Source of the DNA: Armatimonadota bacterium
GTDB lineage: Bacteria > Armatimonadota > Fimbriimonadia > Fimbriimonadales > ATM1
DNA length: 64,000 nt
Assembly (NCBI GenBank): GCA_003577165.1
Contig: QEUM01000002.1
Coordinates: 1 to 64,000 of the forward strand
Direction: 5' to 3'
This document shows, piece by piece, positions 2,419-25,720 of this stretch. The first letter of the stretch is position 1. Each line of letters starts with the position of its first letter. Under the pieces are notes generated by a model that ran no database searches, was not told the origin of the DNA, and saw only the letters and a program-made list of their open reading frames with translations. A program made the position numbers and the translations under genes.

Positions 2419-3849
2419 TTAGTCGAGATACGGTCGATAACTGCTCGTTCCCGCTTCGACGATGACGAACTGACCGTTGATTTGGTCGAACGTGAAGGTC
2501 ATCCACACGGTCTGCCGCCGATTCCACGCGTCAATGAAGTCGTGGCGCGCAACGGCTCTGACTTCGCGTCCTTTCGTCCGGCGTACATCCACGAAGTCGA
2601 AGTTCGTCGTGTAGACGCTCGTGATGAGGTCCGCGGTCATGTCGTAGTAGTCATCCGACGAGAGGGTGTAACTGTAACGCCCCTCGATGTAGATGTCCAC
2701 CGAGCCTCGGCGTGGTAGGAAGTAGTCGAGTTTTCGAGGCTCGCTGTATAGGAACGCGTCCACGAGGTCGCTCAGCGCTCGATCCATGCTCGAGAAGCCG
2801 CGGTCGTTGTAGTAGTAGCCTCCGTAGTAACTCGTCTGCCAACCGATGCCGCAATACGACCATCGGATCGGATCGCCGATCACGATGATGATTCGCGGAG
2901 AGGAGTAACTCACACGTCGGTAGCTGATGTATCCGGGAACGCACCAGTACCAATAGTAAGGCGAGAAGCATGTCTGCCAGGGAACGGGATCGAAGAAGTA
3001 GAAGCCGTATCCAAAGTGGCAGTCGCTCCAATAGGGATCGTAGTGAACGTATCCGCGGCGGAGTTCGCCGACCCGGTAGTCCTCCATCCGAGTCACTTGG
3101 AATCCGATCGAGCCTCGGTCGTCGGACGTTCTCGTGGACCTTGTGTCCTGTTGCCTGGGGATCACGTTGGTGCCGACCACGATGTCCGGAGAGGCGCCTT
3201 TGCGGAGGAGGTTGTTGTTCGCCTCCGTTCTTCCGGGGCCGGAGCGAGGATTGAAGATGGGGCCTTTGTCCGTGCGCCTCTGCACTCGGAAGTAGTCGTC
3301 CATGGAGGGCGTGCGGCTCAGGTAGTCGCGCCCCTGCTGTTTGTACGCGGAGCCGGGGCCTGCGCCGTAGCTGGGGCCGGAGGAGCCGCCGTACGGTTTC
3401 GGGCCGGTGGAAGGCTTGGGGCCCTTGTCACCACCGGGCTTGGGGCCGGTGCTCGGCTTCGGTCCGCCGTCGCCGCCGGGTTTAGGGCCGGTGCTTGGCT
3501 TGGGTCCGCCGTCGCCGCCGGGCTTGGGGCCGGTGCCTGGCTTCGGGCCTTGGTCGCCACCGGGCTTGGGGCCGGTGCCTGGCTTCGGGCCTTGGTCGCC
3601 GCCGGGCTTGGGGCCGGTGCCTGGCTTCGGGCCCTGGTCGCCTCCAGGTTTGGGGCCGGTGCCCGGCTTCGGGCCTTGGTCGCCCTGTTTCGGGCTGCCA
3701 TCTCCGCCGGAGCCTTTGCCTGGCCCTTTTTCGGGGCCCTGTTTGGCGTTGGTCTCTGGCGACTTGTCGAGGATGCCGCCGAACGAAGTGGCGGACAGGC
3801 CGAACGCGATCGCCGTGGCGAGCGCCAGGAAACCAGATGTGCGCTTCAT
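2419..3849 (-). CDS. Secreted protein with Gly-Pro-Lys-Pro repeat stalk and aromatic C-terminal domain
   Basis: A 476-aa protein. From ATG 3849 it begins MKRTSGFLALATAIAFGLSA, a clear signal peptide; a start 10 codons upstream would spoil it, and GGAGGG lies just before 3849. After a short linker come seven 14-residue repeats of the type GDQGPKPGTGPKPG, drifting to GDGGPKPSTGPKPG. Then follows a Tyr/Arg/Gly-rich stretch with many YY and WY pairs, and a C-terminal region ending DFIDAWNRRQTVWMTFTF...FVIVEAGTSSYRPYLD. The Pro/Lys repeat is probably an extended wall-spanning or surface linker. I recognise no enzymatic motif. It is a single-gene unit with its own terminator. A TACAAT -10 candidate is at 3903-3908 (minus). 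Confidence 0.8.
   Translation of the reverse strand: MKRTSGFLALATAIAFGLSATSFGGILDKSPETNAKQGPEKGPGKGSGGDGSPKQGDQGPKPGTGPKPGGDQGPKPGTGPKPGGDQGPKPGTGPKPGGDQGPKPGTGPKPGGDGGPKPSTGPKPGGDGGPKPSTGPKPGGDKGPKPSTGPKPYGGSSGPSYGAGPGSAYKQQGRDYLSRTPSMDDYFRVQRRTDKGPIFNPRSGPGRTEANNNLLRKGASPDIVVGTNVIPRQQDTRSTRTSDDRGSIGFQVTRMEDYRVGELRRGYVHYDPYWSDCHFGYGFYFFDPVPWQTCFSPYYWYWCVPGYISYRRVSYSSPRIIIVIGDPIRWSYCGIGWQTSYYGGYYYNDRGFSSMDRALSDLVDAFLYSEPRKLDYFLPRRGSVDIYIEGRYSYTLSSDDYYDMTADLITSVYTTNFDFVDVRRTKGREVRAVARHDFIDAWNRRQTVWMTFTFDQINGQFVIVEAGTSSYRPYLD
3391..3684 (-). repeat. Seven tandem 42-bp repeats encoding GDxGPKPxTGPKPx
   Basis: Seven head-to-tail copies of a 42-bp unit. The first four copies encode nearly identical peptides with Q and GT; the last three change to G or K and to ST, so expansion or homogenisation seems recent at the N-terminal side. 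Such arrays commonly vary in copy number between strains. Confidence 0.85.
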
Positions 3850-25041: not shown

Positions 25042-25413
25042 ATGGCGAGGCTGAGCGATCCGTGGCACGTGCTTGCGGTGAAGAGCGCGGCGAGGACAAG
25101 CGAGTACTTTCAGTCCAAACTTGGTTTTGAAGAGTTCTTAAAAGTCGAAGAGGACGGGTGGCGTTTCGTGAGGCGAGATTCCTGCGTCATCATGCTTGGG
25201 ACTTGTCCCGATGACGTTGACGCAAGAGAGACGGGGTGTCACAGCTATTTCGCGTACTGGCACGTGGACGATCCGGATGCTCTGTTCGAGGAGTGGAGCG
25301 CGTCCGGCGCGATGCTCATGGGCGAGCCAGCGGACAAAGAGTGGGGGATGCGCGAGTTCGGAGTTACCACGCCCGACGGTCACAGGATCATGGTCGGCAA
25401 GTCCATCCGGTGA
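25042..25413 (+). CDS. VOC-family (glyoxalase/bleomycin-resistance-like) protein
   Basis: A 123-aa single VOC fold with two beta-alpha-beta-beta-beta modules: HVLAVKSAARTSEYFQSKLGF then FVRRDSCVIMLGT, and YFAYWHVDDPDALFEEW then REFGVTTPDGHRIMVG. The pattern WGMREFGVTTPDGHRI is typical of the metal-binding second module (Glu in REF). The protein could be a lyase, dioxygenase or binding protein; no substrate can be inferred. It precedes the SelW-like gene by 58 nt. Confidence 0.85.
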   Translation: MARLSDPWHVLAVKSAARTSEYFQSKLGFEEFLKVEEDGWRFVRRDSCVIMLGTCPDDVDARETGCHSYFAYWHVDDPDALFEEWSASGAMLMGEPADKEWGMREFGVTTPDGHRIMVGKSIR

Positions 25414-25471
25414 CGGAACCGGCGCAGGTGCGTGGTTGTGGAGCCGCGCGTGGAGGGTACAAAGCGACGCA

Positions 25472-25720
25472 ATGAGAATTTCGATCGAGTTCTGCGTGCC
25501 TTGAGACTACACAGACCGCGCCGCCAGTTTGGCGGCCGCCCTGGTGAACGCATTCAAGGAGCCCGTGGGTAAGAAGTCGCTCGTCGAGGAGATCGTGCTC
25601 ATTCCGTCCGGCGCCGGGCGGTTTGAGGTGATTGTGGATGGCAGGCTGATCTTCTCAAAGGCCGCTACCGGCCGGCATCCGACAGCCGACGAGATCATTG
25701 CGCTGATCCGGAAGGGCTAA
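25472..25720 (+). CDS. SelW/Rdx-family selenoprotein (UGA at 25502 read as Sec)
   Basis: Reading through one TGA, the frame from ATG 25472 to TAA 25718 gives 82 residues: MRISIEFCVP-U-DYTDRAASLAA, then VEEIVLIPSGAGRFEVIVDG and RLIFSKAATGRHPTADEI. This is a complete SelW/SelT/SelH (Rdx) protein of normal length, with the redox motif C8-V-P-U11 where homologues have CxxC or CxxU. Without read-through only a 10-residue peptide and a headless fragment remain, while the family homology runs evenly across the TGA. A SECIS-like hairpin follows the TGA. Rdx proteins have a thioredoxin-like fold and a redox role, substrate unknown. Requires selA, selB, selC and selD, none seen in this window. A conventional gene caller would miss or truncate it. 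Confidence 0.88.
25520..25536 (+). promoter_or_regulatory. Bacterial SECIS-like hairpin
   Basis: GCCGCCA and TGGCGGC form a 7-bp perfect stem with loop GTT. The stem base is 15 nt and the loop G is 22 nt after the TGA. Bacterial SECIS elements are short stems inside the coding region just downstream of UGA with G in the apical loop, which this matches. Confidence 0.75.

Follow-up and report, generated by a model that had tools for sequence, protein, structure and literature searches.

SelW-like selenoproteins form an established bacterial family, recognized from about 2005 onwards and found in Sargasso Sea data and in the Deltaproteobacteria (PMC1088965, PMC1794560), so that the gene described here is less novel than a first reading implied. 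It lies at 25472-25720, on the forward strand, in a window of 64,000 nucleotides, which is the whole stretch of DNA that was analysed. With the bacterial SelW-like selenoproteins (PF10262 / TIGR02174) it has in common the predicted fold, the CxxU motif and a TGA with a short SECIS hairpin downstream of it whose apical loop contains a G. It differs from them in its host phylum, the Armatimonadota; most Fimbriimonadales members also differ in an insertion of 6-9 residues between helix 1 and strand 2. The SECIS element of Escherichia coli fdhF is a hairpin placed directly after the UGA, with G then U in its apical loop and the loop G at position 23. The window hairpin is also directly after the UGA and also has G then U in the loop, but the sequence of its stem is different and, with the U of UGA taken as nucleotide 1, its loop G is nucleotide 26.

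Translation from the ATG at 25472, with the TGA at 25502-25504 read as selenocysteine (U), renders a product of 82 residues (MRISIEFCVPUDYTDRAASLAAAL...LIRKG) with Sec as residue 11 and a TAA stop at 25718-25720; the 82-codon frame with a single TGA, including its start and its stop, is thus located exactly where the original prediction had placed it. That prediction had also held that standard annotation would call no more than a headless fragment of 63 amino acids, and under the standard code the locus gives just such a frame, starting with TTG (25529-25720). By eye, a possible ribosome-binding site, GGAGGG, can be recognized at 25452-25457 on the same strand, but it sits 14 nt before the ATG, which is a long spacing, and the start of the gene was therefore taken from relatives. 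The source genome is a 2.75-Mb assembly of 23 contigs with 97.5% completeness. The gene is flanked upstream by a glyoxalase-like gene and downstream by an amidohydrolase gene, neither of which had a tblastn match beside the Rdx genes of relatives, so that the gene context gives no functional hint.

The product matches the Pfam Rdx family PF10262 with 69.3 bits (cut-off 22.6), through residues 2-81 and profile positions 1-74 of 74, which bears out the claim that homology to this family runs on both sides of the TGA. It also matches TIGR02174 (52.8 bits, cut-off 34.2), while for NF041051, the Campylobacter-type SelT/W/H equivalog, the score of 71.2 bits is below the 88-bit cut-off, and therefore the protein was assigned to the broader subfamily only. 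The active-site motif C8-V-P-U11 (TGC GTG CCT TGA, 25493-25504, forward strand) comes directly after strand 2-8, with the TGA at the second redox position. An AlphaFold2 model built from a 32-sequence input has a mean pLDDT of 97.5, and its best PDB matches are the bacterial SelW-related structures 2obk, 2fa8, 2ojl, 2p0g and 3dex (TM about 0.8-0.9); a profile search led to the same set of structures and, in addition, to mouse SelW. With high confidence, the modelled product is a bacterial SelW-like protein with a thioredoxin-like fold. The solved structures 2fa8, 2obk, 2p0g and 3dex, to which the predicted fold corresponds, presumably have Cys where the window gene has TGA.

Conservation of the TGA was analysed in a set of 151 genomes consisting of the source genome and 150 relatives. 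Rdx genes were found in 36 of the 151 genomes; 35 of these genes contain a single in-frame TGA and one, in genome G136, has Cys (CVPC), forming a Sec/Cys pair with the CVPU of the window gene. In the alignable genes (34/34), which belong to several families, the TGA falls in one and the same column, never replaced by TAA or TAG, and the Cys at position -3 is likewise invariant. These numbers exclude a chance origin of the in-frame TGA. An alignment of homologues at this position had been set beforehand as a check, and the relatives do retain both the TGA and the protein sequence downstream of it. Beyond this set, genome contigs were scanned with a profile of a 10-sequence subset, all 32 downstream proteins being too diverse for use as a profile, and C-x-x-TGA is found in 78 out of 80 named loci spanning many phyla, although these loci were chosen by similarity to Sec forms and are uninformative on the frequency of Cys forms. 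A search of viral contigs rendered no relative of the gene. As for the region 3' of the hairpin, dN/dS is 0.40 and 0.07 for the two closest pairs, and differences over comparable pairs accumulate at third codon positions (552, vs 350 and 275 at the other two), which is the pattern expected of a stretch that is translated after the TGA.

The hairpin itself occupies positions 25520-25536 of the forward strand, and the claim of a 7-bp GC stem with loop GTT located 15 nt past the TGA holds to the letter: GCCGCCA (25520-25526) pairs with TGGCGGC (25530-25536) around the apical loop GUU (25527-25529), whose G at 25527 is invariant. The 48 nt that start at the TGA fold with an MFE of -20.4 kcal/mol (z -3.1, 200 shuffles). 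The bSECIS model asks for a loop of 3-9 nt with G in loop positions 1-2, an upper stem of 4-16 bp, a UGA-to-loop distance of 16-37 nt and an MFE <= -7.5 (PMC13188914); the window hairpin, with a 3-nt loop beginning with G, 7 bp, 22 nt and the folding energy given above, is within all of these limits and fits a bacterial SECIS. No Rfam family matched the region. In the 34 aligned relatives, 89.5% of the cells pair against 84.6% in shuffled alignments, and the covariation score is 0.245 against 0.141, values that were reached in 0 of 500 shuffles in either case. Versions of the hairpin slid along the alignment gave pairing of at most 61% but covariation of up to 0.216, so that the paired fraction is a better separator than the covariation score. 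The strongest pair, between columns 21 and 33, is a standard pair in 34/34 sequences and is realized in six different pair types; each of the two columns falls on the third position of a codon.

Codon choice within the hairpin points in the same direction. Ser at +8 is encoded by AGT in 13/13 cases vs 6/132 elsewhere (P 2e-14), and, unlike elsewhere in the same genes, Ala at +7 is always GCC (21/21, P 9e-9) and Leu at +9 always YTG, that is TTG or CTG (30/30, P 5e-9), these three P values being only indicative because the sequences are related. Moreover, the loop G is present in all 34 sequences and in 69 loci outside the Armatimonadota, and Chloroflexi, Gemmatimonadota, Verrucomicrobia and Neomarinimicrobiota share the SelW SECIS core GCCGYC-RGTYT-GGCGG (columns 19-35 from the TGA, L055-L134) in almost identical form; a variant, GCGAGTCTCGC, occurs in Bacillus loci. 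Taken as comparative sequence evidence, these data indicate that the hairpin is under selection at the RNA level.

A search of the genome for selA, selB, selC and selD had been proposed, with absence of selB and selC as the outcome that would speak against the prediction, and all four genes are present. The source genome encodes a tRNA-Sec with a UCA anticodon (76.4 bits; called tRNA-SeC by ARAGORN), SelB (376 bits, positions 2-578 of 581), a full-length SelA (491 bits) and SelD (355 bits). Two further matches to RF01852, barely above the cut-off, were rejected as tRNA-Ser. The selD gene has an in-frame TGA of its own, within a CAGU motif (L016:1531-1533, on G000:C18), making SelD a second likely selenoprotein. 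The best formate dehydrogenase alpha subunit (L137, at G000:C21:7559-9562), a protein that in bacteria is often a selenoprotein, has no in-frame TGA, and selenocysteine is therefore not reserved for FdhA in this organism. A covariance model of the SECIS searched against the same genome found no second strong copy (next match, E 2.1). Across the set, selA scores above the family cut-off in 86 of 151 genomes and is found in 33/35 of those with a TGA-containing Rdx gene vs 53/116 of the others (Fisher P 1e-7, indicative only, since the genomes are related). The two TGA-Rdx genomes whose assemblies contain neither selA nor tRNA-Sec are G007 (73% complete), with SelB-like frames below cut-off, and G132 (88%), with no SelB-like frame.

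Genome G136, of the same phylum, contains in addition to an ordinary tRNA-Sec (UCA), SelA and SelB a tRNA-Sec-like gene with a GCA anticodon (L148:1500-1591, reverse strand; 92 nt, U73 end, 55.9 bits to RF01852), which looks like a selC* tRNA-Cys. Such tRNAs are known from Firmicutes, Thermodesulfobacteria, Nitrospirae and Proteobacteria (review PMC7609411). The Cys-form Rdx gene of G136 (L024:1501-1725, reverse strand) is located about 50 nt downstream of the GCA tRNA gene and has an 8-bp hairpin over its second Cys codon (TGC), in a region whose fold is not more stable than those of shuffled sequences (z -0.6). All other Rdx genes retrieved with the G136 query have TGA. With regard to gene order, in G077 selA (L054:1011-2381, forward strand) is ca. 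0.6 kb from the selW-like gene (about 2986-3219, reverse strand), with one frame between them, and in G015 the two genes are about 6 kb apart.

The source genome thus combines the gene, its conserved TGA, a constrained hairpin and a complete decoding machinery, and 25472-25720 is almost certainly a selW-like selenoprotein gene in which SelB and the hairpin would direct the decoding of UGA as Sec, to give a CxxU redox protein. On meeting the UGA at 25502, the ribosome would find SelB with Sec-tRNA-Sec(UCA) held in place by the hairpin 15 nt downstream; Sec would be put in as the second redox residue of CxxU, and translation would proceed to the TAA at 25718. The product would be a small thioredoxin-like thiol/selenol oxidoreductase, operating most likely through a transient Cys-Sec selenenylsulfide, and family membership makes a thiol/selenol redox role the most likely one. 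Sec insertion, which the original prediction had inferred, gains support from the machinery, the conserved TGA and the selected hairpin together, and a search for the observations that would have spoken against it found none; judged from the sequence, there would be very little room for doubt.

A single in-frame stop within an otherwise intact family member is also what an Rdx pseudogene with a nonsense mutation would exhibit, but conservation of that TGA across genera, in the same column in 34/34 aligned genomes of several families and never as TAA or TAG, already refutes a pseudogene, and purifying selection after the TGA, synonymous constraint on the RNA hairpin and the Sec machinery of the genome add to this, so that we regard it as wholly improbable. 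We hold it just as improbable that TGA is a general sense codon in the source organism, for instance for Trp or Gly. No evidence in favour of this was found, and it is refuted by the fact that TGA serves as a normal stop codon here: TGA ends 9 of the 23 frames of at least 400 codons in the window, and also the glyoxalase-like gene just upstream (25411-25413). The formate dehydrogenase gene, moreover, is free of in-frame TGA, and the residue of the family at this site is Cys or Sec rather than Trp or Gly.

Programmed read-through of the TGA, or misinsertion of Cys independently of selenium with the hairpin acting as a stimulator, is very improbable as well, if less so than the two preceding explanations. 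The identity of the residue cannot be named from sequence alone, and Cys can enter Sec sites when thiophosphate replaces selenophosphate. Against this, however, SelA, SelB, SelD and tRNA-Sec are all encoded in the genome, selA accompanies the TGA-containing Rdx gene in all but two of the 35 genomes, and the hairpin carries a loop G of the SelB type.

A limited literature search found no report of selenocysteine or selenoproteins in Armatimonadota, Armatimonadetes or Fimbriimonas, its one match being a genome paper on Planctomycetes, and the phylum is absent from the main text of a 2016 survey of selenium use (PMC5029168). We propose tentatively, as a possibility that is rather doubtful in its full breadth, that the Armatimonadota (Fimbriimonadales) may be a largely unreported lineage of selenoprotein users in which Sec is carried not by formate dehydrogenase but by a SelW-like protein and by SelD, and in which the SelW SECIS core GCCGYC-RGUYU-GGCGG hardly differs from that in Chloroflexota, Gemmatimonadota, Verrucomicrobiota and Neomarinimicrobiota. 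The present reading corrects a gene that is truncated or lost under the standard code, and the 34-member alignment with its wobble covariation is a clean data set with which to define the SelW SECIS. It would also bring a poorly studied phylum, with selA in more than half of the genomes of the set, among the documented users of selenocysteine. If the proposal is true, the near identity of the SECIS core would point to a gene that has spread horizontally or, alternatively, to a strong constraint imposed by SelB.
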